A model generated the notes under the pieces. That model was not told the origin of the DNA, did no database searches, and saw nothing but the letters and a program-made list of their open reading frames with translations. Both the position numbers and the translations under genes were made by a program. Shown here one piece after another: positions 6,163-59,407 of a stretch of 64,000 bases of DNA. Origin of the DNA: Tetracentron sinense (taxonomy: Eukaryota > Streptophyta > Magnoliopsida > Trochodendrales > Trochodendraceae). Each line of letters opens with the position of its first letter. Within the stretch, counting starts at the first letter, position 1. The stretch covers positions 60,630,944 through 60,694,943 of the forward strand of contig CM026552.1 in the NCBI GenBank assembly GCA_015143295.1, read 5' to 3'.

Positions 6163-7121
6163 TGACTGGTGCTGCAGAATGTACTTCAGTATTTTTGCCA
6201 TAACTTTTGACTCGGTACTCCGATTTTGACGATTCAACTTGTGTTGGATTCGTCTTTCGAAGAGGAACAACTTTCATGTTTTGAATAAATTCTAATTCTT
6301 CTTTATTCATGGAAAAAAATTCCCCTTAAGCTGACTGGTCTGCAATGGGTTGCGACAGCCCAAATTTGCAGCCGACCCGATTTTGGAAATCCCACTTTTG
6401 ACTCAACCCCGACTCAAACTCAGGGAAAGTGATCAACATGAACCTTGAAGAGGGTTCTAATACCTTTCCAAAAATTTAGTAATCACTCAAATTTGAGTAA
6501 CGATGACTAAACTAGAGCCCTTTAAAGTTGAGACAAATGCCGAGACATACCTTTTCACCACCTAGAACACCTCGAGTGTTTTCACACTCTTTTCCCTTGT
6601 GTCCAATACCCTACTCACACCTCATAAATCATTCTCCATAGGTTTTTAACCCACCTCAATGATAATTAAATTCACACCGACATGCGTGAGAGGCTCCGGC
6701 CTCTTTATGCCTCATGCACTAGCACTATTCACCAACAACCCATTTAAACAGTTAGGATATTTTATACCCTTGATTTTACCCACTTAGAGTATCTTTACAC
6801 TCTTTTTAAGACTCAAACCATGTACCTAAAACCCTCACTTGACTAATCATAATATCAAGAACACAATGGGAAGCCTTAGGCCTTTACACACACACCATGT
6901 AAGGGCACTATTCACATGAACAGTGAACTCAATTTCTGGGGCTCTACACACACAATGCAAGATCAAAGGTTTAGATCTATACTTGCATTCTCTAGGATCA
7001 AAGAAAGAGGAGGGATCAACAAAGATCTAATAAGAACAATAGGAAAAACCCTAGAGGAGTTTCTCAAACCTCTACTTTTTCAAAAATAAACAAAGATACG
7101 AATTAGGTCTCCAAAAAGTTG

Positions 7122-7130
7122 TTTATATAG
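7122..7130 (-). promoter_or_regulatory. TATA box of LTR K
   Basis: The minus strand reads CTATATAAAC. It lies about 50 bases downstream, in the sense direction, of the K palindrome array, as expected for an LTR core promoter. Confidence 0.5.
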
Positions 7131-7173
7131 GGTTTAAAAAAAGAATCCAGAAAAATAAAAATTCTTTTTACGG

Positions 7174-7362
7174 GGACCGATCGATCGGTGCACATTACCG
7201 ATCGCTTGGTCCAAAACGGATCGATCGGTGCTCATAACCGATCGAGCTGTTGAAAATCATCTCTCTGGAAAAATACCCCATACAAATTTTTTGTCCAGTC
7301 GATAGCCACCGATCGCTCGGTAGGCCACCGATCGATCGGTCTCAACACCGAGCGATCGGTTG
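7174..7362 (-). repeat. CGATCG palindrome array in LTR K
   Basis: About seven units of ACCGATCGATCGGT, ACCGATCGCTCGGT or ACCGAGCGATCGGT. A spacer in the middle (CTCTGGAAAAATACCCCATAC...CCAGTCGATAGCC, interrupted here) is shared with the arrays of A, B, E and G, although K otherwise belongs to a different family. Confidence 0.8.
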
Positions 7363-7663
7363 AGACAGAATTTTTTCAAACCATTCTTCATTTCATGTTT
7401 ATTTGATTCAACTAAGATCAAACAACTTTATTAGGTTTAAAACTATCCTCCTAGGTATGTTTAGAGTTATCTAAGTCAAATCCAACCTAGTTAGGGGTCT
7501 CTAAGTCCATTACCTTTCTAGATCCAGAGTAGGAGCTTTTTCTTCACTTTCTTCAATCTTCTTTATGCTTTAGCTCTTCTCTTCTGACAAGTTGAACCCG
7601 ACTCGACTCACATGACCTATCTAATGATCACGGAATTTGCCAACACCTACTTAGGGATTTACA

Positions 7664-8387
7664 ATAACATACATGTATATTCATTATTGGTACAATAACC
7701 TTCCCATTTCATTCATCACAACACATCTACACGGCATCCATCGCCCAACATCTAGCTCCATTCATGCATCCCAACTCATAGCATAGTTATAGTTTAGGGA
7801 AAACAAAGAATAAGGAAGGAAAGGAGGAAACCATGATTAGGAGGGTAGCAAAAGGTACCGACCTTGAAAAGGATGAGGAAGAACCCTCCAATCGTGCATG
7901 GAGTCATTGCCCTGGCTTGAAGAATGTGTTCCTCACGCGCTTGAGCCGTGTACTTGAAGAAATCCAAGCTTGTGATGATCTATGGTTCCCAAACCTTTGA
8001 TCCCTTCTCAAGTTGAAGACCTAGGTTAGAAATCCCCTTTCTCCTCTCTCCCTTTCTCTCAAAATGCCTTACTTAGGGTTTATGAAACCCATAAGGCTTG
8101 GGCAAGCCTTAATAGGCAAGGGTGTAACGCCCCAAAGACGAAAAAACCCTTAATGAAATTCTGCAAAACACGATATACCGATCGATCGATGGTTAATACC
8201 GAGCAATCAGTCGCCTACTGGGCGACCGGTTTTTTGACCGAGCGATCGATCAAAAACATGCTATCTGGAATTTTTCCCCATACAAAAAAGTGCACCAGTT
8301 AATAGCTACCGATCGATCGGTTGTAGACCGATCGATCGCCAATATGGACCAAGCGATCGGTTCTCTACAGGTTTTGACACTAAGTCC
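7664..8387 (-). mobile_element. Left LTR of element A, second part
   Basis: The LTR resumes after K and aligns with 14270-14995 of the right LTR, including the CGATCG array at 8177-8360. At about 8387 the text changes directly into integrase coding sequence. The last 230 or so LTR bases, the polypurine tract and the end of pol have been deleted. Confidence 0.85.
8177..8361 (-). repeat. CGATCG palindrome array in A left LTR
   Basis: Degenerate ACCGATCGATCGGT units, with the shared mid-array spacer CCCCATACAAAAAAGTGCACC. An equivalent array lies at 14771-14957. Confidence 0.75.
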
Positions 8388-11195
8388 ATGATATCAACTC
8401 CGGACCTAACACTTTTTTCTCTCCTACCTCATCCCAGTAGAGAGGAGATCTGTAGCTTCTCCCATACAAGGCCTCAAATGGTGCCATTTGGATGCTCGCC
8501 TGGTTGCTATTATTGTAGACGAACTCAATCAAAGGCAAGTGCTCTTCCCAGCTGCCCTTGAAATCCAACATACATGCTCAAAGCATGTCTTCAATGATCT
8601 GGTTCACTCTCTTGGTGTGTCCATCCATTTGTGGATGAAAGGTGGTGTTGGAAATCAAGTTGGGAACCCATGGCATCCTGAAAAATATTCCAGAACCTGG
8701 ACGTGAATCTTGGATCCCGATCTGACACAATACTAACTGGAACCCCGTGCAACCAAACAACTTCCTTGATATACAATACAGCCAATTGGCTCGAATTGAA
8801 CGTAGTCCGATAAGGCAAGAAATGGGTGGACTTCGTTAGACGGTCTACTACAACCCATATTGCATCCGACTTTCTTGCCCTTTTTGGCAAGCCAACAATG
8901 AAATCAATGGAGACGTGCTCCCATTTCCACTCGGGAATAGGGAGAGATTGCAATAGACCCGCCGGTCTCAAGTGCTCTGCCTTCACTTGTTGGCACACTA
9001 AACACCGGGATACATACTCTGCAACATCCCTCTTCATATTCCGCTACCAAAAGTGCCCTTCGAGGTTCCGGTACATCTTTGTACCCCCAGGATGCACTGT
9101 GTACTTTGAACGGTGGGCTTCATCCATAATCTCCCTCCGAGGATCCGCATTAGCTGGCACACAAAGTCTTCCCTTGAATGTAATAGCACCTCGGCTAGTG
9201 AGAGAGAAGTCCTCACTACCCTTGGCAACTTCCTTGTCCTAGAAAGCCAACAACTCAGCATCCGTGGCTTGAAACTCTCTGATTAGATCTATAATGTACG
9301 GTCGAACCGTGATATTTGCCAAGATAGGGGTGTGGATGAAATCATTCACATAGATGTCCAGATTAGCCAAATCTTCCAATAGTCTCCATTCCTGCACCAA
9401 CATGTGAGCCAACAAACCTGGAGGTCTTCTACTCAAAGCATCAGCTACTACATTTTCTTTATCCGGGTGGTATTAGATGGTGCATTCGTAGTCCTTCAAA
9501 AATTCTATCCAACTCCATTACCGTAAATTTAGCTCCTTTTGGGAAAGGAGATACTTAAGGCTCTTGTGGTCCGTGAACATATAGAACTCTTCCCCGTAAA
9601 GGTAATGGTGCCAAATCTTGAGTGCAAACACGACCGTAGCAAGCTCCAAGTTGTGAGTGGGGTAATTCTTTTCATGCTCCTTCAATTGCCTCGAAGCATA
9701 GGCAATGACCTTCTTGTGCTGCATTAGGATACACCCAAGTCCCACGTGCGAGGCATCATTGTACACCTCATACCCACCATGTCCGGATGGCACTGTAAGG
9801 ACGGGGGCCATGGTAAGCCGCTTCTTCAGTTCTATGAAACTGATCTCGCACTTATCGCCCACAAACTTGGTGTTCTTCCTTGTCAGATAAGTGAGCGGTG
9901 CCGTAACCCTCTATGAATCTCCTGTAATAGCCTGCCAACCCAAGGAAACTACTGATCTTTGTGACGCTCTTGGGCCTTGCCCAACTCATGACTGCCTCTA
10001 TCTTCTTCGGATCCACCAAGATGCCTTCTGCAGAAACAACAAGGCCTAGGAATGCCACTTCCTCCAACCAAAACTCACACTTGCTTAGTTTGGCATACAA
10101 CTTGTGTTCTCTCAGCATTTCCAAAGCAAGGCGAAGGTCTCGCGTGTGATCTTCTCGGGTCTGGGAATATATCAGGATGTCATCGACAAATATTATCATG
10201 CATCGATCCAGGTATGGTTGGAATACCCAGTTCATCAGATCCATAAAAGCCGCCGGCGCATTCGTGAGACCAAAAGGCATCACCAAGAACTTGTAATGTC
10301 TATACCGAGTCTGGAAATCAGTTTTGGGAACATCTTCTGCTTAATCTTCAACTGGTGGTAACCCGATCGAAGATCAATCTTAGAGAAAAATCTTGCTCCC
10401 TTTAACTGATCGAACAAGTCATCAATCCTAGGCAATGAATACCTATTCTTTATAGTGACCTTGTTCAACTGCTGGTAACCCGATCGAAGATCAATCGATG
10501 CACATCCGCATCGAGCCATCCTTCTTCTTAATAAAAAAAACTGGGAAACCCCATGGTGAGACACTTGGTCGAATGAAACCAAGGCCTTGCATCTCCTCTA
10601 ACTGTGTCTTCAACTCCTTGAGTTCAATCGGGGCCATTCTATACGGAGCCCAGAAGATAGGAGTTGTGCCTGGTGCAAGCTCGATCACAAACTCAATCTC
10701 CCTGTCTGGAGGCAACCCTGCCAACTCCTCTGAAAATACATCCAAGAATTCACTCACAACCGGGATAGTCGAAGAGTCATTTGTCTTGGGTTTCGCTAGG
10801 CTCAACGCTACAAAGTGGGCAATATCTTTACTTCTCAACCCCCCCAAAATGGAATGGCTTCCCTTCCACCGGCCTGAAGAGCACCATCTTCTCAAAGCAA
10901 GCCACATGCCCATGATGTGCTACTAACTAATCCATCCCCAAGATAACATCAAAGTCTTGGAATCCAAGGACGATGAGATCGGCTACCAATTCATGGCTTC
11001 CAACCTGAATTGCACTGCCTCTGAAAATGCGATCTGCTACTACTGTCTTGCCGATAGGAGTCGAAATGAATAACTCTGGTTTCAATTTACTAGGCTCCAT
11101 AGAAAAGGCCTGGGAAAAACTCGATGAGACAAATGAATGGGTAGACCCGGTGTTGATCAATACTCTAGCCAAACATTCATTGACTAGTAAGGTTC
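8388..11195 (-). pseudogene. Element A pol (protease, RT, RNase H, integrase), decayed
   Basis: Read on the minus strand from 11195 there is a protease (NTG in place of the usual DTG, about 11150), then RT with FVDD (about 10200) and RNase H (about 9518-9862). An integrase follows with CLVCQQ zinc ligands, DFIVGL, SDRD and truncated downstream text (about 8380-9436). Several stop codons and frameshifts break it. The YRQLNK region carries a local duplication (see findings). The chromodomain and C-terminus are deleted. The same lesions occur in the copy at 61901-64000. It cannot encode working proteins. Confidence 0.9.
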
Positions 11196-11338
11196 CTGAA
11201 ATTTTTACTCGCTAAGTCAATCCATGCATTAACATCATATGTATAGATATATATCGATATAGAACATGCCACATATGTACACAGAGAATAAGGCATAACA
11301 AGATTATCGTGGATAAATGAATAACTCCAAACGCGTAC
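11196..11338 (-). other. Predicted gag-pol intron of element A (143 bp)
   Basis: The 5' site is CAAG^GTACGCG and the 3' site TTTCAG^GAACC. Removal joins the gag codon CAA-G to GA and continues in the protease frame. Unspliced, gag ends within the intron. Confidence 0.65.
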
Positions 11339-13862: not shown

Positions 13863-14770
13863 GAGGAAAGTGGAAAACTCCCTCATATGCAATGCTTGTT
13901 CTTTTCAAAGCGAGGTAAAACATATCGTAAGATATATCCTACCTCTAAAACCCTTATCCTTGAAAACACCGGTAAACCATGTCATGCATGCCATGCTCGC
14001 GAAATCGTGTACATGCTTTCACTTGGAATTAAATATGACATTTGAGATTTCAACGATACATATGATATCATTAATTTAAACAAGTAAATATTCATGCCAT
14101 TTAGAGAAAGCAATTAATCAAACTATCATAAACCCTAGCAATTCCATACACTTTTAAGCATGCATTTCTTGATTTACAACTCATTTTATTCACCTTGGCA
14201 TTTCATCAAACATGCGGTGTGTACATTATTTGTTAAGGCCTATACCATGCTTTTCTAGGTGGGTTTATGTTCACAACATACATGTATATTCATTATTGGT
14301 ACAATACCCTTCGCATTTCATTCATCACAACACATCTACACGGCATCCATCACCCAACATCCATCTCCATTCATGCATCCTAACTCATAGCATAGTTATA
14401 GTTTAGGGAAAACAAAGAATAAGGAAGGAAAAGAGGAAACCATGACTAGGAGGGCAGCAAAAGGTACCGACCTTGAAAAGGATGAGGACGAACCCTCCAA
14501 TCATGTGTTGAGTCACTGCCCTAGCTTGAAGAACGTGTTCCTCACATGCTTGAAGAAATCCGAACTTGTGATGATCTAGGGTTCCCAAACCCTTGATCCC
14601 ATCTCAAGTTGAAGACCTAGGTTAGAAATCCGCTTTCTCCTCTCTCCCTGTCTCTCAAAATGCCTTACTTAGGGTTTATGAAACCCATAAGGCTCAGGCA
14701 AGCCTTAATAAGGAAGGGTGTAACGCCCAAAAGATGAAAAAGCCCTTAATGAAATTCTGCAAAACGCGAT

Positions 14771-14957
14771 ATACCGATCAATCAGTGGTTAATACTGAGC
14801 AATCGGTCGCCTACCGAGCGACCGGTGTTTTGATCGAGTGATCGGTCAAAAACATGCTATTTGGAATTTCTCCCCATACAAAAAAGTGCACCAGTCGATA
14901 GCTATCGATCGATCGGTTGTGGACTGATCGATTGCCAGTATGGACCGAGCGATTGGT
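14771..14957 (-). repeat. CGATCG palindrome array (A right LTR)
   Basis: Degenerate units such as ACCGAGCGACCGGT and ATCGATCGATCGGT, in the same position as in the left LTR. Confidence 0.7.
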
Positions 14958-15224
14958 TCTCTGCAGGTTTTGACACTAAGTCCATTTTTCATCCATTCCT
15001 ACTACTTGGACTTATCCTCCTTCCCTTTTGACCTCTTCTAAACATGACTAAGACCCCTTTCGAGGCTATAGTTCATTACTAATTATTTTTATTTAATTAT
15101 TTATAGCATTCTTGAAACAATTCTCAAATGTTCCAAATTCGCATTTCATGGAATTGGAGATTACATAGGCATCATGCCTTGACAAACATTCCAAGGAATA
15201 TACAAAAAGTTTTGGGGTTCTACA

Positions 15225-16062
15225 TCCTACCACAATAGTTGCACTCCTCCAAAGACGAAGAGGATGACGGTGACACATATCTAGTGCCTTGAGAAAAAGC
15301 GCGGCGAGGTGCCTCTGAAGTAGTAGGATGAGGTGTTGTCGGTACAAAAGGAGGCCTCTATGTCTGTGTAGGCCTAGGAGTTGGATAAGGGGAAATCCTG
15401 GTCCTCTTTTCTGGTGGTGCTAAACCAGTGGAATGACCCTTCTGCATGACTCTCTCGAATCCACTCTCTCCTCTTGAGAAAATCCTCTGAGTTCTTTTCG
15501 GTGATCCTCGCCTTTCCCATAATCTCTCTCCAAGACTCCACCTGAAGAATGGAGACTCGATCCTTGATGAAGGGCTTCAACCCATTCTCAAATTTCTGGA
15601 CTCGCATCTCCTCTGTCGACATCAAGTGCGGTGCGAATCAGGATAACTCCACAAATTTGGCCTCATACTCAGCCACACTTATGTCTCCTTATTCCAAGGT
15701 CATGAACTTCATTTCCTTTTGTTGTTTGACAATCTTGGGGAAATATTACCCATAGAAGGCATTTAGAAACTCACCCCAAGACCATGGCTCTCCGGCTCTG
15801 GTAGTGTCTCTCTATGTTAATGCTGCTCTCCACAAATGGTTAGCTTCCCCTTCCATCATGAAGGCTGCCCAATCTACTCTCTACTCATCCGTGCAACGAA
15901 GAGCACGAAATATTTTCTCCAGTTGCATAATCCACGCTTCTGCAACCATGGGGTCTGTAGTCCCATAGAAGGTAGGTGGATGAAGCCTTCAGAATGCCTC
16001 AAGTCCCGAAGTGTGATGAGGTAGAGGTGGGTGTACCAATGCATTTACAGCAGCAGGCTGTC
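15225..16062 (-). pseudogene. Element C gag, 3' part
   Basis: The sequence aligns with D gag at 38345-39180 (EEMRV.KFENGLKPFIKDRVSILQVESWREIMGKARI, interrupted here). It is cut on the left by the LTR of A, just before the last zinc knuckle, and on the right by solo LTR G. It resumes at 27230. Several stops and a gap make it non-functional. Confidence 0.85.
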
Positions 16063-17925: not shown

Positions 17926-18080
17926 CGATAGACCGAGCGATCGGTGCTTATGACCGATCGATCGGTTGCCTACCGAGCGATCGGTGTTATTGACCAATCG
18001 ACCGGTCAAAAACATGCTCTCTGGAAAATTTCCCCATATAAAATTTCTGACCAGTCGATAGCCACCGATCGATCGGTTTT
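17926..18080 (-). repeat. CGATCG palindrome array in LTR G, cut by element B
   Basis: ACCGAGCGATCGGT and ACCGATCGATCGGT units with the shared spacer. The array continues after B at 26977-27022. B's insertion point is inside the array. Confidence 0.85.
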
Positions 18081-18384
18081 TGTCGCGACCCAAAATACCC
18101 CCTAGGAGTTAAGGATACTTTGACTCGTGACCGCCGTATCATACCTCCAGTATGATACATAAGGCACACGTGGAAACCTGTCAGAGTACCTGCATATACA
18201 TAGCGAAAACGAAATACAATGCACAGCGGAAAATAAAATACTAAACATAGCGGAAGCAAAATGAATACTCCTATAGCTTGGCTCAAGTAAGAACCAACAA
18301 GTACACATGTGTGAGAAACCCAAAAGTGGAGTGGACAAACCCCACACTCACATAACAAAATGACACAAGTTCTAAGTCGGTCGA

Positions 18385-18525
18385 TCAACAGAAATCGAAG
18401 TCACGACTCCTATCTAGAGCACCATCGTCATGATAGTGATCCATGGAAGGCTCCGGGTCACGGTACTCTTCCTCGACCCAAGGTTCGTCGCCACACAAAT
18501 CGAATGGAACCCGAGCACCTGCCGA
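18385..18525 (-). pseudogene. MSAG-family small ORF in B LTR, start lost (also 25410-25550)
   Basis: The frame reads SAGARVPFDLCGDEPWVEEEY and continues to a stop, 46 aa, clearly matching the family core. The usual ATGTCG reads ATGATCG here. One inserted A puts the ATG out of frame and a TGA directly before the serine. Both LTRs share this, so it was so before insertion. Either the peptide has been dispensed with in B or another start is used. Confidence 0.55.
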
Positions 18526-18769
18526 TCATAACAATATCGACTGAGCATGGAATACTCAGTGTATACAAACTAAGAACAATAAAGCGGTTAGGCATGGAGC
18601 ATACAAGACATGGAGAATGAAATCCGAACAATCCTTAAAGCATGGAAACCGTGAAAACATATGTGAGATAATATTCGAAACCAAAACTGTAACCGTGTGA
18701 GTCAATCGATAATCATAGCCTTATGAGTTCTTGTGAGTTCATGGAGTTACTTAGAGTCATTATGATCCG

Positions 18770-18975
18770 TAGAGACATAGAGCATAGAGCATAGAGCAAT
18801 ACCGTAGAGCATTTCCATAGAGCATAACCTTAGAGATCTTAGAGCATTTCATTGTGATCCGTGGAGCTTGTGAGACGATCTTAGAACATTATCATAGAGT
18901 TTCCTTGTGAGCACGGTATGATCCTTAGAGCTTGTGAAACGATCTTAGAGAAATCATAGAGTTACTTAGAATCAT
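18770..18975 (-). repeat. TAGAGCAT-type short repeats in R/U5 of B LTR
   Basis: Irregular repeats of TAGAGCAT, GATCTTAGAG and GATCCGTGGAGCTTGTGA occupy the position of the hairpin arrays in other LTRs. I see no clear co-varying stem. They are repeated at 25795-26000. Confidence 0.6.
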
Positions 18976-19477
18976 TCATTATTCGTCTTTTCGTGAAAAA
19001 CCTTTATTTGTACTTTGAGAAATCCATGGAAACCATCGGTTCATGCGAGACATGCGAGCATATGCACTTAATAAGAGAAATCATCGTATTTAAACATAGA
19101 ATCCCTTAGAGGTATTTCATCAAACACTTAGAGTGCATCATAATAGTAACCTTCATCCAAGTATATAATCACACCTTTTTCATACATAAAATCAATACAC
19201 ATAGATAGGGCATAGATAAGAAGAATCATACTTAGTAACTAGTAGGATTGCAAGATTGTAGTAGAGTGTATCTACCTTAGAGAAATCAATGGATTTGACT
19301 CCCAATGGCTGGAACAAGCAAGAACAGTGAGTTCTTGGTTGGAAATCACCAAGGGAAGTGGAAGAACCTTGATCTTCCACGAGCTTGATCAACAAGTAGT
19401 TCCTCTCCTTCTTCTCTCTCTCAAAATCTCCTAAGATAGGGCACAGAGGGTTTCTGAAACCCTAAGGCACGAACTCA

Positions 19478-19490
19478 GCCTATTTATAGG
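19478..19490 (-). promoter_or_regulatory. Core promoter (TATA box) of element B LTR
   Basis: The minus strand reads CCTATAAATAGGC. Transcription is expected to begin about 30 bases further along the minus strand (about 19450). The equivalent in the 5' LTR, which would drive the element, is 26503-26515. Confidence 0.75.
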
Positions 19491-19542
19491 CAAGGGGTTG
19501 TGTTTAAAGTCTTAAACACCCTTAATGAAGAAAAATTGCGTA

Positions 19543-19732
19543 TGACCGATCGATCGGTGGTATGGACCGAGCGATCGGTGGCTTACCGGTCGATCGGTGT
19601 TATGACCGAGAGATCGGTCAAAAACACACTCTCTGGAATTTTTCCCCATACAAAAAAGTTAACCGTGCGACAGCCATCGAGCGATCGGTAGTGGACCGAT
19701 CGATCGCAGGTAATGACCGAGCGATCGGTGCT
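19543..19732 (-). repeat. CGATCG palindrome array upstream of B TATA box
   Basis: Seven units such as ACCGATCGATCGGT, ACCGAGCGATCGGT and ACCGGTCGATCGGT lie about 55-245 bases upstream of the TATA box. In the 5' LTR it is 26568-26757. Position and palindromic form suggest protein-binding sites in the promoter. Confidence 0.85.
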
Positions 19733-19951
19733 CTGTTATGTCTGGACTGTTTTGACCATATCTTTTTACTCGCTCGTCGGATTTCGACGATTCAACTTGC
19801 GTTGGATCCGTCTTTCGAAAACGAACATTTCTGACGTTTCGGAATTTCCGATTTCTCCCTTATTTATTAATTAGACTACGAAAACTATGAAAACGGCCAA
19901 TTAGCTATGAAGGTGCTATTCATTAAGGATGAAAAAGTCCGGGGTGCTACA

Positions 19952-19970
19952 TTCTCCCCCCCTTACAAAA
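19952..19970 (-). other. Polypurine tract of element B
   Basis: The minus strand reads TTTTGTAAGGGGGGGAGAAT directly before the 3' LTR, the standard primer site for plus-strand DNA synthesis. Confidence 0.85.
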
Positions 19971-20042
19971 ATTTCGTCCCCGAAATTTGGACGATACATA
20001 CATGCGTAAAACTATAGCAAAATACAAGGGAATGCCATGGCC

Positions 20043-23000
20043 TTAAACAAATAAATGGGGGTACTTTTCTCGTACTTCGGCTTCTCGCTCCCATGTAGCC
20101 TCTTCCTTGGAATGATGCTGCCACTTCACTAGGACTAAAGGGATAGTCTTGGTTCGCAACACTTGATCTCGACGATCCAGAATCTGAACTGGTTGCTCAA
20201 CCAACGTAAGATCCTCTCGAATCTCAACAGGATCAAGAGCGATGACGTGAGACGGATCCGAAATGTATTTTCTAAGCATAGAGACGTGAAATACATTATG
20301 GACCGCTGCCATGTGAGGCGGTAGTGCTACCCTGTAAGCAACCTCACCAACCCTTGTGACGATCTCAAATGGTCCCACGTACCTAGGACTGAGCTTTCCC
20401 TTCTTCCCGAATCGCATGATTCCCCGACTCGGCGAAATCTTCACAAAGACCCGATCCCCAACTCGGAACTCTAAATCTCTGCGGCGTATATCCGCATAGC
20501 TCTTCTGCCTATCCTGAGCACTTTTCAATCGCTCCCGGATAATTTTGACCATTTCTGCGGTCCGCTCTATCAACTCAGGACCAAGAATTTTCCTCTCACC
20601 AACTTCATCCCAGTATAGCGGTGATCGACAACTCCGACCATACAGAGCTTCAAAAGGTGCCATCTGGATGCTCGCCTGATAGCTATTGTTGTAGGCAAAC
20701 TCAACCAACGGCAACTGTTCCTCCCAACTACCCTGAAAATCCAGCATACAAGCTCGGAGCATATCCTCCACTACTTGATTCACCCTCTCCGTTTGTCCAT
20801 CGGTCTGAGGATGGAAGGCGGTACTGAATTCTAAACGAGAACCCATAGCATCCTGGAAAGTTTTCCAAAACCTGGAAGTAAACCGAGGATCTCGATCAGA
20901 CACGATAGAAACTGGCACACCGTGCAGTCGAACCACCTCCTTAACATATAGGGCTACCAACTGATTTGCATTGAAAGTAGTTCGGTACGGAATAAAATGT
21001 GCAGACTTAGTCAACCTGTCCACAATCACCCAAATAGCATCGGAGCCCTTCGCCGTTCGCGGCAAACCCACAATGAAATCCATCGAGATGTTCTCCCATT
21101 TCCACTCCGGAATAGGAAGGGACTGCAAAAGACCTGCCGGCCTTTGATGTTCGGCTTTTACCTGCTGGCAAATCAAACATCTGGCGACGTACTCAGCGAC
21201 TTCCCTCTTCATGTTTCGCCACCAGTAGTGCTTCTTGAGATTCTGGTACATCTTAGTACCTCCCGGATGTACCGTGTACTTTGATCGGTGAGCTTCATTC
21301 AAAATTTCATCCCTCAAAACTGTGTCGGCGGGGACACACAACCTGCCTTTAAATGTGATAGCACCATCATCATTTAAAGCGAACTCCTGATTGCCGTTAC
21401 TCACCGACTTGTCTCGGTAAGCAAGCAACTCAACATCGGAATTCTGTAACTCCTTGATCTGGCTCAGGATCTGTGGCCTAACCACCACGTTGGACATTAT
21501 CGGCCCATAGGTGACATGCCTGAGAGTAGTGTCCAAATGACACATATCATGTAATAACTTCCACTCTTGCACTCTCAATTGAGCCATAACTCCGTAAGGT
21601 TTTCTGCTAAGAGCATCGGCTACCACGTTAGCCTTACCCGGGTGGTACTGGATGGAACAGTCGTAGTCCTTCATGAACTCCATCCAACGACGCTGCCTCA
21701 TATTCAACTCCTTCTGGAGGAAAAGATACTTCAAGCTCTTGTGGTCTGTGAACACCACGAACTCTTCTCCGTAGAGGTAGTGACGCCAAATTTTCAGTGC
21801 AAAGATGACTGCAGCGAGCTCTAAGTCATGTGTGGGGTAGTTTTGCTCATGCTCCTTCAGCTGACAGGAAGCATAGGCGACCACCTTTTTATGCTGCATC
21901 AAAACACATCCAAGTCCCACTAGTGAAGCATCACTATAGACTTCGAAACCACCGCTCCCAGATGGAACTGTGAGAACAGGAGCCGAAGTAAGCTTCTTTT
22001 TCAACTCCAAGAAACTAGCCTCGCACTTATCACTCCAAGTGAACCTCGTGTTCTTCCGTGTGAGATAGGTAAGCGGAGCTGCTAAACTTGAAAATCCTTC
22101 CACAAACCTCCTGTAATAACCTGCCAACCCGAGGAAACTACGAATCTCGGTGACACTCTTCGGCCTTTCCCAATTCATCACCGCTTCAATCTTTGCAGGA
22201 TCAACTGAAATACCTTCAGCGAATACCACGTGTTCAAGAAAAGACACCTTGTTCAGCCAGAACTCGCACTTGCTCAACTTAGCATACAGACTATGCTCTC
22301 GAAGTGTCTGCAAGACCAGACGGAGATCTCTCGTGTGATCCTCCTGTGACTGTGAATACACAAGGATATCATCTACGAACACGATCACACATAGATCGAG
22401 AGACGATCTGAACACCCGATTCATCAAATCCATGAATGCTGCCGGTGCGTTAGTCAGTCCAAAAGACATGACCAAAAACTCGTAATGACCGTATCGAGTT
22501 CGGAATGCTGTCTTCGGAATGTCCTCTTTCTTGATCTTCAACTGATGATAACCAGATCGAAGGTCAATCTTGGAGAAAAACTGCGCACCCTTCAATTGGT
22601 CAAACAAGTCGTCTATCCGAGGCAATGGATAACGATTCTTGATCGTGACCTTGTTCAATTGCCTGTAATCAATACACATACGCATTGATCCATCCTTCTT
22701 CTTCACGAAGAGAACCGGAGCTCCCCAAGGTGAAACACTTGGCCGGATAAAACCAAGGCCTTGCAATTCTTCTAACTGCTCTTTTAACTCCTTAAGCTCA
22801 ATAGGGGCCATCCTATACGGAGCTCTTGAAATCGGAACTGTGCCTGGAGCTAGCTCAATCGCAAACTCGATTGCACGATCGGGAGGCAATCCCGGTAAGG
22901 TTTCCGGAAAAACATCCATATACTCACATACCACTGGAATGGGTGTGGAGTCTCGCACTTCTACACCCTCGAGACTAAGAGTTGCAAAGCGGGCAATGTC

Positions 23001-23374
23001 TCTTCTCTGAAGTCCCCTGAAATGAAACGGCTTTAACCCCACGGGTTTAAAATGCACCACCTTCTCGAAACACGCCACGTGTCCATGGTGAGTTGAGAGC
23101 CAATCCATACCTAGGATGACATCGAAATCCCAATCCTGAATTCCCAGAAGGATCAAGTCGACTGGCAACTCGTGCTGCATGACTTGTACAACACTATCCG
23201 GATACACTTTATCTGTCTCAATAGATTTTCCCAATGGAGTTGAAATGGACAACTCCCTAGGTAGCTTGCTTGGCTCGGACGTAAAGCCTTTGGCAAAGCT
23301 TGGTGAAACGAACGAGTGAGTGGATCCTGTGTCTATCAACACTCTTGCCAAACATTCATTTACGAGCAACGAAC
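20043..23374 (-). CDS. pol: Element B pol: protease, RT, RNase H, integrase, chromodomain
   Basis: This polyprotein copies the element RNA into DNA and inserts it. Residues are counted from LLVNEC (pol residue 1 at 23369). Protease DTG is 13-15, RT FVDD 331-334, and RNase H acidic residues D480, E517 and D542. Integrase zinc ligands are H694, H701, C731 and C734, and the catalytic triad is D764, D825 and E861 with 35 residues between the last two. The GPF motif is about 999-1001, and a chromodomain-like tail runs about 1057-1108. The frame is intact. It has no ATG at its start and is closed upstream by TAA at 23388-23390, so it is presumably made as Gag-Pol after splicing of 23375-23512 (1515 aa joined). 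The usual FVDD replaces YVDD. Confidence 0.95.
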
Positions 23375-23512
23375 CTGAGAATTTGAATTATCCCAGTTAT
23401 AACACAACTGTACATATAGATACAAACATCGCAAAACACCACATAGGATATATATAGATACGAACATATCATGGCAACATTAGAACTTCAACAAAGACTA
23501 GTTCGCGCGTAC
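23375..23512 (-). other. Predicted intron between gag and pol of element B (138 bp)
   Basis: Donor CAAG^GTACGCG and acceptor TTCTCAG^GTTCG, with an AT- and T-rich interior. Splicing joins CAA-G to GT-TCG-TTG. The coding lengths on either side (1216 and 3332) sum to 4548, an exact multiple of three, and the joined frame is open. Unspliced, gag terminates at TGA 23469-23471. The same boundaries are kept in A, D and E. Confidence 0.75.
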
Positions 23513-24728
23513 CTTGCACAACATCATCAGATGCCTGTGCGTCTCTATCAGTCATGGCAAAGACTCTGCCCTGGTTTGCCTGACGAGGCTGCTGGGTAGG
23601 CTGCAAGGATCTAGAGGCCTGAGATGAAGACCCCTGAAGTGAATTCTGCCTGCCTGGAGGCCGAACTCCCTGTGATCCAGACTGTGAATGCTTGCGCGGG
23701 CAATCTCGAATCATATGGCCCATCTCGCCACAATGGAAGCATCCACCTGACATTCTTCGGCAATCTCCAGTCTTATGCCGACGACCACATGCGGCGCACT
23801 CCTCAAATGTCTGCGATGCGGAGGAAGCCGGAGGCATAACCCTCGTAGCTTGCGATGCTGTAGGACGCGGTGCCTGAGGCGCAAAAGAAGGTCTCTGAGC
23901 CGAAATCGTCTGGGAGAACTGGTACGGTGCAGTCCTAGTCCTCTTCTCTGAAGAACTACTCGTCTGACCCCGAGACATGTTCTTCCCGAAGCCACTGTCT
24001 CTTCTTCTCACGAAGTCTTCCGCATTCTTTTCGGCGATCTTTGCCTTCCCTACTATCTCTCTCCAAGACTCTACCTGGAGAATGGACACCCGATCTCGGA
24101 TGAAAGCCTTCAAGCCCATCTCAAACTTCCTAACCTGTAGGTCTTCAGTAGCCACCAAGTGCGGAGCAAACCTAGACAACTCGGTGAACTTAGCCTCATA
24201 CTCGGCTACGCTCATCGACCCTTGCTCCAAAAGCATAAACTCTCTCGCCTTTTGTTCCCGAATAAACCTGGGAAAGTACTGTTCCCTGAAAGTCTCTAAG
24301 AACTCCGCCCAAGTCCAGGGCACACCTGCCTTAGCAACATCTCTCTGCCTTTGGGCAGCTCTCCACCAGTGTTCGGCTTCACCCTCCATCACGAAGGAAG
24401 CCCATTCTACCCTTTGCTCATCGGTACAACGGAGAGCCCGGAAGGTCTTCTCCAGCTGCATAATCCAAGACTCGGCCACCATGGGGTCCAGAGTGCCATA
24501 GAATGTAGGAGGCCGCAGTCTCCTAAAAGCTTCGAGCCCCGCGGTGTGATGCACCGGTGTAGGCACAGGCGTGGACGGTGGGGTAGGCATAGGCCTTGCT
24601 GCCAACAATGCCAAAGTCTCGGCTATGGAGTCCATAGCATTCGTGAAATACAACGGTTCCTCTTCTCTTGGAACTTCACTCTCGGCCCTCCGAGTATGGT
24701 AACCTCGACCCCGATTGACACGTCTCAT
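23469..24728 (-). CDS. gag: Element B Gag, 419 aa
   Basis: Gag is the particle-forming, RNA-binding structural protein. I chose the ATG at 24728 because MRR.NRGRGYHTRR matches gag starts in A, C, D and E; an upstream ATG at 24782 would add 18 residues. The capsid-like core has EGEAEHWW and EFLETFREQYFP, followed by SMSVAEYEAKF. A first knuckle CAACGRRHKTGDC (shortened spacing) precedes a standard CX2CX4HX4C knuckle, CFHCGEMGHMIRDC, at about residues 330-343. After DDVVQ the frame runs 14 codons into the intron before its stop, giving a Gag-only product from unspliced RNA. Confidence 0.92.
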   Translation of the reverse strand: MRRVNRGRGYHTRRAESEVPREEEPLYFTNAMDSIAETLALLAARPMPTPPSTPVPTPVHHTAGLEAFRRLRPPTFYGTLDPMVAESWIMQLEKTFRALRCTDEQRVEWASFVMEGEAEHWWRAAQRQRDVAKAGVPWTWAEFLETFREQYFPRFIREQKAREFMLLEQGSMSVAEYEAKFTELSRFAPHLVATEDLQVRKFEMGLKAFIRDRVSILQVESWREIVGKAKIAEKNAEDFVRRRDSGFGKNMSRGQTSSSSEKRTRTAPYQFSQTISAQRPSFAPQAPRPTASQATRVMPPASSASQTFEECAACGRRHKTGDCRRMSGGCFHCGEMGHMIRDCPRKHSQSGSQGVRPPGRQNSLQGSSSQASRSLQPTQQPRQANQGRVFAMTDRDAQASDDVVQGTRELVFVEVLMLP

Positions 24729-25089
24729 GATATCAAATCCTGAGATCAATTTGGCAAAACATGAGTCTAACTTGGATACCAAACCTCACATATCATATAG
24801 CAATTCAATAATCATGAAATGCTAACACCGCATTTAGTATACATCAAGGTATACACGTAAGAATACCATCACAACTTAGAGTACCCTAGCATAGCTAAGA
24901 CACTTGCATTGGGCATCTATCTTTTCTAGGATCCTATACTAACCTAAAGATTCACTTGATACCGGGTATGTCGTGGTAACAAGCCTAAGACAACTGAGTC
25001 CTTCTGAGTTCTAAGTTCAACTCATAGGAATTACTTCCGCTTAGACCAAGCCTGAGTGACCTAACTAAGTCTGTCCTTAGACATAACTA

Positions 25090-25101
25090 GCTTTGATACC
25101 A
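25090..25101 (-). other. Primer-binding site of element B
   Basis: The minus strand reads TGGTATCAAAGC, four bases from the 5' LTR end, complementary to initiator-Met tRNA with one mismatch. Confidence 0.75.
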
Positions 25102-25105
25102 AGTC

Positions 25106-26976
25106 TGTCGCGACCCAAAATACCCCCTAGGAGTTAAGGATACTTTGACTCGTGACCGCCGTATCATACCTCCAGTATGATACATAAGGCACACGTGGAA
25201 ACCTGTCAGAGTACCTGCATATACATAGCGGAAAAGAAATACAATGCACAGCGGAAAATAAAATACTAAACATAGCGGAAGCAAAATGAATACTCCTATA
25301 GCTTGGCTCAAGTAAGAACCAACAAGTATACATGTGTGAGAAACCCAAAAGTGGAGTGGACAAACCCCACACTCACATAACAAAATGACACAAGTTCTAA
25401 GTCGGTCGATCAACAGAAATCGAAGTCACGACTCCTATCTAGAGCACCATCGTCATGATAGTGATCCATGGAAGGCTCCGGGTCACGGTACTCTTCCTCG
25501 ACCCAAGGTTCGTCGCCACACAAATCGAATGGAACCCGAGCACCTGCCGATCATAACAATATCGACTGAGCATGGAATACTCAGTGTATACAAACTAAGA
25601 ACAATAAAGCGGTTAGGCATGGAGCATACAAGACATGGAGAATGAAATCCGAACAATCCTTAAAGCATGGAAACCGTAAAAACATATGTGAGATAATATT
25701 CGAAACCAAAACTGTAACCGTGTGAGTCAATCGATAATCATAGCCTTATGAGTTCTTGTGAGTTCATGGAGTTACTTAGAGTCATTATGATCCGTAGAGA
25801 CATAGAGCATAGAGCATAGAGCAATACCGTAGAGCATTTCCATAGAGCATAACCTTAGAGATCTTAGAGCATTTCATTGTGATCCGTGGAGCTTGTGAGA
25901 CGATCTTAGAAAATTATCATAGAGTTTCCTTGTGAGCACGGTATGATCCTTAGAGCTTGTGAAACGATCTTAGAGAAATCATAGAGTTACTTAGAATCAT
26001 TCATTATTCGTCTTTTCGTGAAAAACCTTTATTTGTACTTTGAGAAATCCATGGAAACCATCGGTTCATGCGAGACATGCGAGCATATGCACTTAATAAG
26101 AGAAATCATCGTATTTAAACATAGAATCCCTTAGAGGTATTTCATCAAACACTTAGAGTGCATCATAATAGTAACCTTCATCCAAGTATATAATCACACC
26201 TTTTTCATACATAAAATCAATACACATAGATAGGGCATAGATAAGAAGAATCATACTTAGTAACTAGTAGGATTGCAAGATTGTAGTAGAGTGTATCTAC
26301 CTTAGAGAAATCAATGGATTTGACTCCCAATGGCTGGAACAAGCAAGAACAGTGAGTTCTTGGTTGGAAATCACCAAGGGAAGTGGAAGAACCTTGATCT
26401 TCCACGAGCTTGATCAACAAGTAGTTCCTCTCCTTCTTCTCTCTCTCAAAATCTCCTAAGATAGGGCACAGAGGGTTTCTGAAACCCTAAGGCACGAACT
26501 CAGCCTATTTATAGGCAAGGGGTTGTGTTTAAAGTCTTAAACACCCTTAATGAAGAAAAATTGCGTATGACCGATCGATCGGTGGTATGGACCGAGCGAT
26601 CGGTGGCTTACCGGTCGATCGGTGTTATGACCGAGAGATCGGTCAAAAACACACTCTCTGGAATTTTTCCCCATACAAAAAAGTTAACCGTGCGACAGCC
26701 ATCGAGCGATCGGTAGTGGACCGATCGATCGCAGGTAATGACCGAGCGATCGGTGCTCTGTTATGTCTGGACTGTTTTGACCATATCTTTTTACTCGCTC
26801 GTCGGATTTCGACGATTCAACTTGCGTTGGATCCGTCTTTCGAAAACGAACATTTCTGACGTTTCGGAATTTCCGATTTCTCCCTTATTTATTAATTAGA
26901 CTACGAAAACTATGAAAACGGCCAATTAGCTATGAAGGTGCTATTCATTAAGGATGAAAAAGTCCGGGGTGCTACA
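25106..26976 (-). repeat. 5' LTR of element B (1871 bp)
   Basis: It holds the promoter that should drive the element: palindrome array 26568-26757, TATA at 26503-26515, and transcription toward lower coordinates. It ends at GCTACA followed by the duplicated GTTTT. Confidence 0.95.
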
Positions 26977-27229
26977 GTTTTGGACCGATCGATCGCTGAT
27001 GAGGACCGATCGATCGGTGCTCTGCAGGTTCCACTATTTTGACCATATCTTTTGACTCGTTCGTCCGATTTTGACATTTCAACTTGCGTTGGATTCGTCT
27101 TTCGAAAACGGACATTTCTGACATTTCAGAATTTCCAATTTCTCCCTTATTTATTAATTATACTATGAGCAAGGCCAATTGGTAACGAAAATGCTATTCA
27201 TTAAAGTTGGAAAAGTCCGGGGTGCTACA

Positions 27230-37925: not shown

Positions 37926-38065
37926 CTGTGCATTGTAGTTAGCTACATCAATAAATTTTAAGCAACACATACATAGAGTTCAAGTAATAAAATATACTCA
38001 TATGCAACCATATAAGATATAATACTCATCCATTCATACTTGAGAAATTTAGAATTTTCACGTAC
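37926..38065 (-). other. Predicted gag-pol intron of element D (140 bp)
   Basis: Donor CAAG^GTACGTG and acceptor ATGCACAG^GCGTA. Removal joins CAA-G to GC in the protease frame. Unspliced gag stops at once (GGT-ACG-TGA). Confidence 0.65.
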
Positions 38066-49877: not shown

Positions 49878-49977
49878 NNNNNNNNNNNNNNNNNNNNNNN
49901 NNNNNNNNNNNNNNNNNNNNNNNNNNNNNNNNNNNNNNNNNNNNNNNNNNNNNNNNNNNNNNNNNNNNNNNNNNNNN
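49878..49977. other. Assembly gap (100 N)
   Basis: Exactly 100 undetermined bases, the usual placeholder for a gap of unknown size. Neighbouring sequences on the two sides need not be adjacent in the genome. Confidence 0.99.
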
Positions 49978-50421: not shown

Positions 50422-50523
50422 GAGTTTTGATAAGTTTGTATATGACTTGTAATTTTCTTGTTGCTTTGTAATGCAAGTAGCGTCTAAATTTCGAGGACTA
50501 AATTTTTTGTAAGGAGGGAAGGA
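50422..50523 (+). other. 3' untranslated region and polypurine tract of element F
   Basis: TTTCGAGGACTAAATTTTTTG, followed by TAAGGAGGGAAGGA directly before the LTR, is the sense counterpart of B's 19952-20042. Confidence 0.75.
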
Positions 50524-50739
50524 TGTAGAGCCCCGGCCTTTTCACATTTACTGCATGACCCTTCGTAGCCATTTTTCCTTTAAAGTAATGCAATTAATAA
50601 ATAAGGAAGAAATTAGAAATTCTGAAAGTCAGAAATGTTCGTTTTCGAAGTACGAACCCAACGCAAGTTGAATCGTCAAAATCGGACGAACGAGTCAAAA
50701 GTTATGGCCAAAACCGTTTGGGACCGCAGACCACCGATT

Positions 50740-50925
50740 CGCTCGGTCCATGGAGCGATCGATCGGTCCAAAACGATCGCTCGGAGGCTATCGACTGGTC
50801 GAGATTTTTACTATGGGGAAATTTTCAGGAGAAGTGAAATTTCAACCGATCGCTCGGTTATGAAACCGATCGATCGGTAGGCAACCGCTCGGATTGGTCA
50901 TTAACACCGATCGCTCGGTCCTCGC
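50740..50925 (+). repeat. CGATCG palindrome array in LTR F
   Basis: Seven units such as ACCGATCGATCGGT and ACCGATCGCTCGGT, some mutated, with the shared GTCGAGAT/GGGGAAATTTTC spacer. Confidence 0.8.
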
Positions 50926-51837
50926 GTTTTACAGAATTTCACTAAGGGCATTTTTCGGCATTCGGATGTTATACCCCTTTTCTTACTATAGGATTGCCCG
51001 AGCCTTTAGGGCTCATTCTCAACCTTAGAAGATTTGGGAGATTAGAGAGAAAGGAGAAGGTTTTCCAAAACCTAGGTTTCCATTTTGGAGAGAAATCAAA
51101 GGGTTTTGAAACCCTAGATCAACCTCAAGCCCGATTTCTTCAAGATTTTCGGTTCAAGCATTCGTGGAGCTCGTGTGGGGCACTCTCCTCAAGCTAGGGC
51201 AGCAACTCACGTGCGTTTGGTGGAGGATTTCTTCCCCCATTTGTCAAGGTCGGTACTTTTTACTACCCTCCTAGTTATAGCCTCTCCTTTCCTTATTTCT
51301 TCTTGTTTTCCTTCATATATATATATATATTATGAGATGGGCGGTAATGTATGGTAAATGGAGAGGGATGTTGGCGAATGGATGCCGTGTGGATGATGTA
51401 TTGAATGAATGGGGAAGGGCATTGTACTAATAATAAACATACAAGTGTGATGTGAGTATAACCCACCTAGAAAAGCATGTTGTAGGGTTAATGAATAATG
51501 AATTACCATGTTTGATGAAATGCCAAGGTGAATAAAATGAATGATAAATTAAGAAAATGCATGTTTAAGGTTTATGGAAATTGCTAGGGTTATGATAGTG
51601 TGATTGTTCGCTTTCCCTAAATGATATCAATATTAAATTGCCCAAATCATTGATGTTATGGTGTTATGAATTACTCAAATGCCATATTTAATTCCAAATG
51701 CAAGTATGCACACGACCTCACGAGCACGCATACATGACATGATTTACCGAGGTTTTCAAGAATGGGATTTAGAGGTGGGGCATATCGTACGATATGTTTT
51801 ACCTCGCTTTTGGCAAGGACAAGACAATCATGCATTT

Positions 51838-52085
51838 TCATAAGAAGGGTCTCCCTTCCCTCACAAGTGCATACATAACATAAGAAGGGCCTCCCTTCCC
51901 TCGCAAGTACATCTCACAAGAACATCTCACAAGTGAAAGGACATGACATGAGCATTTAGGAAGAAGGGTCTCCCTTCCCTCACAAGTAGTTTACTCTTCC
52001 AAGCATGATACAAGCAAGCATGACATGGCATGACAAGCATGGGCATTTAGGAAGAAGGGTCTCCCTTCCCTCACAAGTAGTTTAC
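51838..52085 (+). repeat. GAAGGG/CCCTTC hairpin array (LTR F)
   Basis: Four units of GAAGGGtctCCCTTCCCTCACAAG or the cct-loop variant. The outer TTTAGGAAG...AGTAGTTTAC text is repeated around two of them. Confidence 0.8.
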
Positions 52086-52412
52086 TTTCCAAGCAAGCAT
52101 GACATGGCATGACACGCACGATACGATAAGATAAGACAAACATGACAAGTTTTCAAGCAAGGAATGGTATTTTCAGTCAAGTCAAGTGCACGGTGTTTTC
52201 AAGGGTTTTATCGGCTTTTATGAATTCAAGCATGATTATATACTCCTTTACTTTATTGTCATGATATGAATTATTCCTGCTTTATATGCTTGAATTGTTT
52301 CCTGCTTTAGATATGTGAAATGCTTCCTGCTTCCTATACTGCTATGGTTTTGCTATGACTATTGGTTAGTATTTAGTACCCGCTGAGTATTCCATGCTCA
52401 GCCGTACTTCTT

Positions 52413-52532
52413 ATGTCGGCAGGTTCTGAGGGAGCTGCTGCTCCGTTTGATATCTGTGCTCCGAGCCCTTGGGTGGAGGAGGAGTACGTCGAGGAGCCTT
52501 TGGAGGAACCTCCCGTAGAGGGTTACCATTAG
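52413..52532 (+). CDS. LTR leader small ORF (MSAG family), F version, 39 aa
   Basis: Intact frame: MSAGSEGAAAPFDICAPSPW, then VEEEYVEEPLEEPP and VEGYH. It is identical in residues to the E copy. The hairpin CTGAG...CTCAG (52382-52402) and 11 further bases precede the ATG. No ribosome signal beyond this can be read, and the product is unknown. Confidence 0.5.
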   Translation: MSAGSEGAAAPFDICAPSPWVEEEYVEEPLEEPPVEGYH

Positions 52533-52833
52533 GTGGTTGTAGATTCTGAGTGAATAGCTGTGGGTGAGATGAGAGATATACTTTCATGTATTTTGGCGGG
52601 TCTGTCCGCACTTTCTTTTGGTTACTTTTGTATAACTTGGATTTGCGCATGTATATTCATAGAGGTTTGGTTAGACTTCCACTGTGTTTTATAGTTATGT
52701 TTCCGCTATAATGTCCTCTATTGTATATGCTCTGTGGGTTTTTGCAGGTTGGTTTGTCAAGCAAGTTATGTAAGTCATGATTGAGTCGTCCAAGATTCAC
52801 TCTAACTCCTAGGGTGGGTTTTGGGTCGCGACA

Positions 52834-55766: not shown

Positions 55767-55910
55767 CTGAAATTTTAGCTAGTTACGTCAATTCAAGCTT
55801 CAACAGTGTATACACGTAAGTAAATATATATATAGCATACCAACTACGTACACAAGGAATAAAACATAACACAACAATCACGAATAAGGAAAATAACTCC
55901 TAACGCGTAC
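55767..55910 (-). other. Predicted gag-pol intron of element E (144 bp)
   Basis: Donor CAAG^GTACGCG and acceptor AATTTCAG^GAACC. The splice joins CAA-G to GA-ACC in the protease frame. Unspliced gag ends three codons in, at TAG. Confidence 0.72.
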
Positions 55911-57515: not shown

Positions 57516-57808
57516 CTTCTGTCGCGACCCAAAACCCACCCTAGGAGTTAGAGTGAACTTTGGACGACTAATCATGACTTGCTTGACAACCAACCTGCAA
57601 AACCCACAGAGCATATACCATAGAGGACAATATAGCGGAAACATAACTATAAAACACAGCGGAAGTCTAACCAAACCTCTATGAATATACATGCGCAATT
57701 CCAAGTTATACAAAAGTAACCAAAAGAAAGTGCGGACAGACCCGCCAAAATACATGAAAGTATATCTCTCATCTCACCCACGGCTATTCACTCAGAATCT
57801 ACAACCAC

Positions 57809-57928
57809 CTAATGGTAACCCTCTACGGGAGGTTCCTCCAAAGGCTCCTCGACGTACTCCTCCTCCACCCAAGGGCTCGGAGCACAGATATCAAACGGAG
57901 CAGCAGCTCCCTCAGAACCTGCCGACAT
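57809..57928 (-). CDS. LTR leader small ORF (MSAG family), E version, 39 aa
   Basis: Intact frame identical in residues to F: MSAGSEG, PFDICAP, PWVEEEYVEEP, EGYH. It lies about 290 bases inside the 5' LTR end and upstream of the intact E gag, so on the element RNA it is an upstream ORF. The hairpin at about 57939-57959 is just before it. The antisense frame (79 aa) is a shadow. Confidence 0.5.
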   Translation of the reverse strand: MSAGSEGAAAPFDICAPSPWVEEEYVEEPLEEPPVEGYH

Positions 57929-58258
57929 AAGAAGTACGGCTGAGCATGGAATACTCAGCGGGTACTAAATACTAACCAATAGTCATAGCAAAACCATAGC
58001 AGTATAGGAAGCAGGAAGCATTTCACATATATAAAGCAGGAAACAATTCAAGCATATAAAGCAGGAATAATTCATATCATGACAATAAAGCAAAGGAGTA
58101 TATAATCATGCTTGAATTCATAAAAGCCGATAAAACCCTTGAAAACACCGTGCACTTGACTTGACTGAAAACACCATTTCCTTGCTTGAAAACTTGTCAT
58201 GTTTGTCTTATCTTATCGTATCATGCATGTCATGCCATGTCATGCTTGCTTGGAAAGT

Positions 58259-58505
58259 AAACTACTTGTGAGGGAAGGGAGACCCTTCATCCTAAATGCC
58301 CGTGCTTGTCATGCCGTGCCATGTCATACTTGTATCATGCTTGGAAAAGTAAACTACTTGTGAGGGAAGGGAGACCCTTCTTCCTAAATGCTCATGTCAT
58401 GTCCTTTCACTTGTGCGATGTTCTTGTGAGATGTACTTGCGAGGGAAGGGAGGCCCTTCTTATGTTATGTATGCACTTGTGAGGGAAGGGAGACCCTTCT
58501 TATGA
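58259..58505 (-). repeat. GAAGGG/CCCTTC hairpin array (LTR E)
   Basis: Four units of CTTGTGAGGGAAGGGAGACC or AGGC, followed by CTTC, separated by GTCATG-rich text. It is the mirror of the F array. Confidence 0.8.
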
Positions 58506-59407
58506 AAATGCATGATTGTCTTGTCCTTGCCAAAAGCGAGGTAAAACATACCGTACGATATGCCCCACCTCTAAATCCCATTCTTGAAAACCTCGGTAAA
58601 TCATGTCATGTATGCGTGCTCGTGAGGTCGTGTGCATACTTGCATTTGGAATTAAATATGGCATTTGAGTAATTCATAACACATAACATCAATGATTTGG
58701 GCAATTTAATATTGATATCATTTAGGGAAAGCGAACAATCACACTATCATGACCCTAGCAATTTCCATAAACCTTAAACATGCATTTTCTTAATTCATCA
58801 TTCATTTTATTCACCTTGGCATTTCATCAAACATGGTACATTCATTATTTATTTACCCTACAACATGCTTTTCTAGGTGGGTTATACTCACATCACACTT
58901 GTATGTTTATTATTAGTACAATGCCCTTCCCCATTCTTTCATTACATCATCCACACGGCATCCATTCGCCAACATCCATCTCCATTTACCATACATACCA
59001 CCAATCTCATAACACATATATAAATGAAGGAAAATAAGGAGAAACAAAGGAAAAGGAAAGCTATAACTAGGAGGGTAGTAAGAAGCACCGACCTTGAAGA
59101 GATGAGGAAGAAACCCCTCTTCCAAACGACCGTGAGTTGCTGCCCTAGCTTGGAACACGAGCTCCACCCGAGCTTGAGCCGAGATCTTGAAGGAAAACGT
59201 GCTTGAGGATGATCTAGGGTCTCAAACCCCTTTGATTCCTCTTAAAAATGGAAACCCTAGATTTAGGAACCCTTTCTCCTCTCTTCTAATCTCCCAAATC
59301 TTCTAAGGGTTGAGAATGAGCCCTAAAGGCTCGGGCAATCCTATATAAGAAAGGGCATGACACCCGAATGCCGAAAATGCCCTTAGTGAAAATTCTGTAA
59401 AACGCGA

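Follow-up and report, generated by a model that had tools for sequence, protein, structure and literature searches.

How does a long terminal repeat (LTR) retrotransposon produce its Gag-Pol polyprotein when a short stretch that ends the Gag reading frame separates gag from protease? The question is raised by four gag-pol copies, here labelled A, B, C and D (A, B, D and E of a first-pass annotation of this DNA), in a window comprising the whole 64,000 nucleotides (nt) analysed. The window is rich in LTR retrotransposons, its gag-pol copies are all on the minus strand, and it looks like plant DNA, the related proteins coming from plants. Copy B is a chromovirus (Ty3/gypsy) by its domains, with Gag, protease (PR), reverse transcriptase (RT), RNase H (RH) and integrase (IN) in this order and a chromodomain after the integrase. 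Based on the sequence evidence below, we propose that the intervening stretch is a conserved and very likely spliceosomal intron, and that its partial splicing would likely determine whether a transcript yields Gag or Gag-Pol.

In each of the four copies the stretch is bordered by the donor TGCAAG/GTACG and the acceptor CAG/G and lies exactly at the gag-protease junction. The Gag frame before the donor reads ...AS(D)DVVQ and the protease begins after the acceptor with (S/T/V)LL(V/I)NxxLARVLI(D/N)TGST, again in all four. The first-pass annotation had described CAAG/GTACG...CAG/G at a common codon, with lengths of 143, 138, 140 and 144 nt and a phase 1 join that restores the protease frame, and the coordinates, lengths and phase were all reproduced, with a Gly codon split G/GN. 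Stretch lengths modulo 3 are 2, 0, 2 and 0 (A to D), and in every case the frame is re-established once the sequence from GT to AG is taken out. The joined frame of 1516 codons claimed for B also holds, with 1216 + 3329 nt giving 405 + 1 + 1109 = 1515 sense codons plus the stop. Left in place, the stretch terminates the Gag frame in 4/4 copies, as had likewise been stated, at 11, 14, 2 and 3 codons past VVQ in A, B, C and D, respectively.

The borders were compared with other possible joins using GT-AG pairs 60-300 nt apart and at most 45 nt from the borders on the exon sides. Frame-joining pairs near the junction numbered 11, 4, 4 and 14 (A, B, C and D), of which only one is common to all four. 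Removal of the stretch is thus the one tested join that links the frames in all copies, which supports a spliced fraction making Gag-Pol. Exact matches to TGCAAGGTACG occur four times in the window, all of them at the four junctions; allowing up to two mismatches gave 14 matches against a mean of 10.2 expected, which is chance level, so that position and not motif carries the weight. Identity of the stretch between copies is 46-70%, compared with 63-85% in the coding flanks (102 nt on either side), and is the lower of the two in 6/6 pairs; the ends of the stretch are fixed while its interior drifts faster than the flanks. Its U content of 40-44% is 12-16 points above that of the flanks, and its GC content is 28-35% (AT 65-72%) versus 46-51%. 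A U- or A-rich composition is expected of plant introns, according to the available parts of PMC3735527, and is found here relative to the exons, together with GT-AG borders bearing the exon-side consensus. The spliceosomal-type reading put forward in the first-pass annotation is strongly supported by these borders, the shared frame-restoring pair and the U content. A control of Gag versus Gag-Pol by this intron, likewise put forward there, would be the best reading of the sequence and is a proposed function.

An uninterrupted junction is the commoner state among relatives. Three protein searches provided 170 listed relatives (44, the best 120 of 7980, and six new ones from a Gag alignment search). 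A forward count started from the gag tail ending in Gly alone, present in 59 of these; the 111 without the tail pattern, including P0066, P0107 and relatives starting inside the protease, were left out. In 52 of the 59 the frame continues into the protease, and 13 residues separate the Gly from the catalytic Asp position (43 recognised by pattern and nine by eye, P0142 having Val at the Asp position). At least 40 residues follow the Gly in 51 (42 by pattern and nine by eye), P0019 reaching the motif at 13 and ending at 31, while the remaining seven end 0-11 residues past the Gly, too early to judge (P0004, P0005, P0010, P0012, P0014, P0026 and P0044). The window copies, too, have a spacing of 13 once the stretch is removed. 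Given that 52 relatives are uninterrupted with this spacing, sequence comparison places the stretch within one codon of an otherwise conserved frame, and the uninterrupted state marks the exact join. Relatives with gag and protease in a single frame had been named in advance as evidence against an intron; they were indeed found, yet what they mark is the join, and the intron is not refuted. A second count, which required the gag tail to lie no more than 45 residues from the catalytic motif and could by design contain no interrupted relative, gave 49/49 uninterrupted, 46 of them with Gly. It dropped 93 relatives without a catalytic-motif match and 15 with fewer than 25 residues before the motif; 13 of the 62 left had no recognised gag tail (ten VxG-type by eye, P0086 with Ser for Gly, and P0066 and P0107, which are not gag-like). 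A scan of genome contigs added two plant-like stretches, of which L002 has a gag-pol junction contiguous at the DNA level and L001 does not reach the junction. L001 (1-3816, plant-like pol) and L002 (1-3565, plant-like gag-pol) are in contigs recorded as Streptomyces clavifer and Labilibacter sediminis, respectively, and these plant-like sequences in bacterial assemblies are most likely contamination.

A tree of 97 PR-RT pieces, rooted at the midpoint and with relatives bearing no clade labels, places B and D in a clade of their own (100/99) on a long stem. Their nearest row is the uninterrupted P0079, the long branch leaving this placement unsure. Gain of the stretch on the B + D stem is the simplest reading of this topology, whose root is a midpoint only. 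Among the best 120 of 7980 matches, those covering at least 88% of the query are approximately 55-63% identical, and several of the top-scoring Tanacetum matches (P0047, P0050, P0052, P0053 and P0055) are models with repeated RT segments. The Gag alignment search added P0167 to the close Gags, without a junction. No relatives were found by scanning IMG/VR with the PR-RT and Gag proteins, and a donor-context pattern scan returned five viral contigs, in which no gag or PR-RT match appeared at E 0.01.

Translational bypass of the gag stop, by frameshift, readthrough or ribosome hopping, is used by many retroelements whose gag and pol are split, and under this reading the stretch would be a spacer. 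We regard such a bypass as very unlikely here and rejected it, because the relation between the gag and protease frames varies among copies and no structure stands out: lengths of 143 and 140 nt put the protease in another frame, those of 138 and 144 nt leave its frame unchanged but with several intervening stops, and no one event fits all four. Folding beyond that of shuffled sequences was not seen in the stretches (z of 1.18, 0.70, -0.32 and -0.32), and recoding would not conserve GT and AG where homology breaks off. With no excess folding and no matches in the window to Rfam models at gathering score, a self-splicing intron (group I or II) was also rejected. Separate initiation of the protease fared no better. 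In exon 2 an in-frame Met first occurs downstream of the catalytic DTG in B, C and D (residues 65, 89 and 87) and of NTG in A (residue 32), which carries Asn instead of the catalytic Asp, and the 5-6 open codons preceding exon 2 contain no Met in any of the four copies. With no ATG ahead of the catalytic motif, the protease cannot initiate by itself at ATG.

From the borders, the frame logic, the composition, the constraint on the flanks and the uninterrupted relatives we infer splicing, its partial nature and its setting of the Gag to Gag-Pol ratio. Under the proposed mechanism, full-length intron-retaining RNA would be translated to Gag only, its frame ending 2-14 codons past VVQ, and the same unspliced RNA would be packaged and reverse transcribed, passing the intron on. 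For a minority of the transcripts, joining of CAAG to the G after CAG by the host spliceosome would restore the VxG-(13 residues)-DTG protease start and yield Gag-Pro-RT-RH-IN-chromodomain. The genome would have to be the unspliced RNA, because copying of spliced RNA would have lost the stretch.

The stretch might instead be a real intron that is spliced nearly always, or only by accident, and plays no part in the Gag to Gag-Pol balance. Similar introns of genes are spliced constitutively, but replication via RNA eliminates any intron that is always spliced. This one is retained in copies that have reached synonymous saturation, which suggests that unspliced RNA is likely the usual genome. Accidental splicing is at odds with the finding that no DTG-containing protease can start at an ATG unless splicing occurs, and we consider either variant improbable. 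Between B and D, synonymous divergence (pS) is 0.79 in gag and 0.85 in PR-RT, compared with nonsynonymous values (pN) of 0.29 and 0.12, respectively; synonymous sites are saturated and the protein is conserved. This combination of high pS and low pN indicates that the interrupted elements have probably been functional and transposing over a long time.

Several observations weigh against partial splicing of a conserved intron. Over the 20 nt that precede AG the pyrimidine fraction is just 0.45-0.55, and a YTNAY branch-type motif, present in A, C and D, is absent from the last 55 nt of B. Such weak 3' signals could keep splicing partial and fit inefficient splicing, but they fit no splicing equally well. 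Three of the four copies are damaged, so that the argument from conservation has B and D and an old shared event to draw on; the copies are also related, hence their four identical sites cannot be counted as independent, and the comparison within this lineage covered the stretch-bearing copies of the window only.

Damage is also what would be expected if the stretch had arisen by decay or insertion in dead copies, or through faulty assembly, and mimicked an intron by chance. Only in B is the frame open throughout on both sides of the junction; the pol frame of D is broken into two open reading frames (ORFs), and A and C are degraded, their frames staying open for 163 and 19 codons before the donor and for 88 and 286 codons downstream. 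However, the same codon is interrupted by stretches of distinct lengths in four diverged copies, and in B both flanking frames are open, the LTRs differ at 5/1871 positions and the target site is duplicated. At E 0.1 within the window, B's stretch matches only itself and those of A and D match each other; the other matches are 15-19 nt long (15 nt for C; 19 nt at two places for A), and another repeat of the window was accordingly rejected as the source. Overall, we hold decay or artefact to be extremely improbable.

Copy B is complete and young, having inserted recently by the likeness of its LTRs (5/1871 mismatches), and the features of its junction are listed in the table. Exon 1 has Pfam matches to Retrotrans_gag (9e-18), Ty3_capsid and zf-CCHC, and exon 2 to RVP_2 (1.4e-26), RVT_1 (1.6e-35), RT_RNaseH, Integrase_H2C2 and Chromo (PF00385, 7.4e-6), ending in a TAA stop at 20045-20043. 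The primer binding site is one mismatch away from what we take to be the initiator-tRNA-Met type.

Table. Intron-like stretches of the four copies and features of copy B (window positions).
Feature	Position	Strand	Remarks
Intron-like stretch of A	11196..11338	-	143 nt
Intron-like stretch of B	23375..23512	-	138 nt, phase 1, gag/protease boundary
Intron-like stretch of C	37926..38065	-	140 nt
Intron-like stretch of D	55767..55910	-	144 nt
Copy B, whole element	18081..26976	-	two 1871-nt LTRs and 5-bp duplication
5' LTR of B	25106..26976	-	1871 nt, differs from the 3' LTR at 5 positions
3' LTR of B	18081..19951	-	pairs with the 5' LTR, 5/1871 differ
5-bp duplication GTTTT flanking B	18076-18080 and 26977-26981		
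Primer binding site of B, TGGTATCAAAGC	25090..25101	-	
Exon 1 of B: Gag, ATG to split Gly codon	23513..24728	-	capsid, zinc knuckle
Exon 2 of B: protease, RT, RNase H, integrase, chromodomain	20043..23374	-	1109 open codons
Gag from unspliced RNA of B	23469..24728	-	stop within intron-like stretch

Further element fragments surround these copies. A fifth copy (59806-64000) is truncated by the window end before its junction, and a gag remnant at 15230-16059, 92% like the gag of C, has neither pol nor junction; it adjoins 14275-14985, which resembles 7666-8389 beside the pol of A. The LTR-like arms around D (50523-52833 and 57520-59806) are mutually inverted and 93% alike over 2.3 kb (inner parts 99%). 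They differ in this from the direct LTRs of a normal element, and inversion, recombination or assembly error are possible. A 4.2-kb direct duplication (6293-10487 and 59806-64000, 99.07% identity) runs beyond the window end and begins at 59806, where the LTR-like arm upstream of D stops. Elsewhere, 1804-2470 holds a 205-nt repeat in three copies (spacing 208 and 254 nt); two copies are 95% alike and the third 60%. A run of 100 N at 49878-49977 probably represents an assembly gap.

Known systems provide partial parallels; papers are cited, as above, for the available parts of their text. Plant LTR elements are generally without introns, Ogre and EVADE being notable exceptions (December 2025 review, PMC12786077), and most of their groups have a single ORF, Bianca and Ogre being named with gapped ORFs (Neumann et al. 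2019, PMC6317226). Ogre and BARE had been suggested as precedents in the first-pass annotation, of which Ogre has the right polarity and BARE does not, splicing there making a Gag-only RNA. In Ogre (Ty3/gypsy, Tat), splicing makes the longer polyprotein, as proposed for the window copies, but the intron lies between GAG-PROT and RT (gap mean 274 bp), and the element has a second RNase H and no chromodomain. The stretch described here, of about 140 nt, precedes RVP_2, with PR-RT in one frame, and B has a single RNase H position and a chromodomain (E up to 0.01). CRR, the rice centromeric element, is a chromovirus. Its transcripts are spliced too, but splicing removes RT and creates two ORFs and is not that of a gag-protease intron (PMC3735527). 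BARE1 and EVADE (Ty1/copia) have a facultative intron that decides between Gag and Gag-Pol, which in BARE1 is 104 nt long, U-rich and at the protease start, and splicing in EVADE removes the protease domain (PMC3735527, PMC12786077). Their polarity is the opposite, the spliced RNA giving Gag alone and the unspliced RNA gag-pol, whereas the unspliced frame of the window copies stops within the stretch in 4/4. Bianca (Ty1/copia) has two ORFs with a mean gap of 172 bp, a possible expression strategy, but belongs to another superfamily, and section 13 of PMC6317226 cites no splicing for it.

Ordinary Tekay/Del-type chromoviruses, the putative type of the window copies in the first-pass annotation, resemble the window element in domain order, chromodomain, tRNA-Met-type primer site and long LTRs. 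Retrosat2 of this type and its homologues have gag-pol in one ORF1 (PMC3485330), unlike the window copies. Sunflower Tyran and Varan are expressed with spliced Gag isoforms, Tekay members being absent from the expressed set (PMC7730604). For beet and Stevia, the available parts of papers that treat Tekay elements are silent on such an intron, and those of Medicago and orchid papers mention introns in Ogre-type elements and no gag-protease intron of a chromovirus. An open-access literature search found no chromovirus with a gag-protease intron; subscription papers and preprints were outside its scope, and absence is not proven. As far as searched, position and lineage are new, and the principle is known from Ogre.

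Some relatives may extend the pattern. Immediately ahead of the Gly, 42 of the 59 gag-tail relatives have Thr and three have Gln, and since Gln-Gly is the coding product of the CAAG/G donor, the latter are a lead to further introns. These three, P0004, P0014 (Sarracenia) and P0044 (Senna), end 11, 5 and 0 residues past the Gly, P0014 and P0044 being gene models. Ending within 40 residues of the Gly was seen in 3/3 relatives with Gln versus 5/56 others (Fisher p 0.0017, post hoc and with few rows). P0004, a 54%-identical Gag from an ENA contig, is about as distant from B as D is (56% versus 55%) and leaves homology at the same codon (VVQGT/SSQSFITAWY). P0066 (a cluster of 1330 members) is a protease-RT ORF from a 75.9-Mb contig. 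Its start, MVRKILNAFNLFI ahead of the Gly, does not resemble the gag tails found here, and by its sequence P0066 is a candidate second split gag-protease junction; it does not group with the window copies in the PR-RT tree. The Gln relatives and P0066 could be further introns at the same codon or ordinary frame breaks. That chromoviruses evolved a gag-protease intron switch of their own, independent of Ogre, by which one splice decision would sort each transcript into either genome and Gag mRNA or Gag-Pol mRNA, with the same codon gaining introns in more than one plant lineage, is a tentative suggestion that we put forward with considerable doubt.

Chromoviruses rank with the most abundant retrotransposons of plants, and the single-frame polyprotein of most plant LTR groups leaves their excess of Gag over Pol unexplained. 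If the proposed mechanism is true, an intron retained at the exact gag-protease codon would explain the excess of Gag over Pol for one lineage. It would also show an Ogre-like solution arising again in another branch of Ty3/gypsy.
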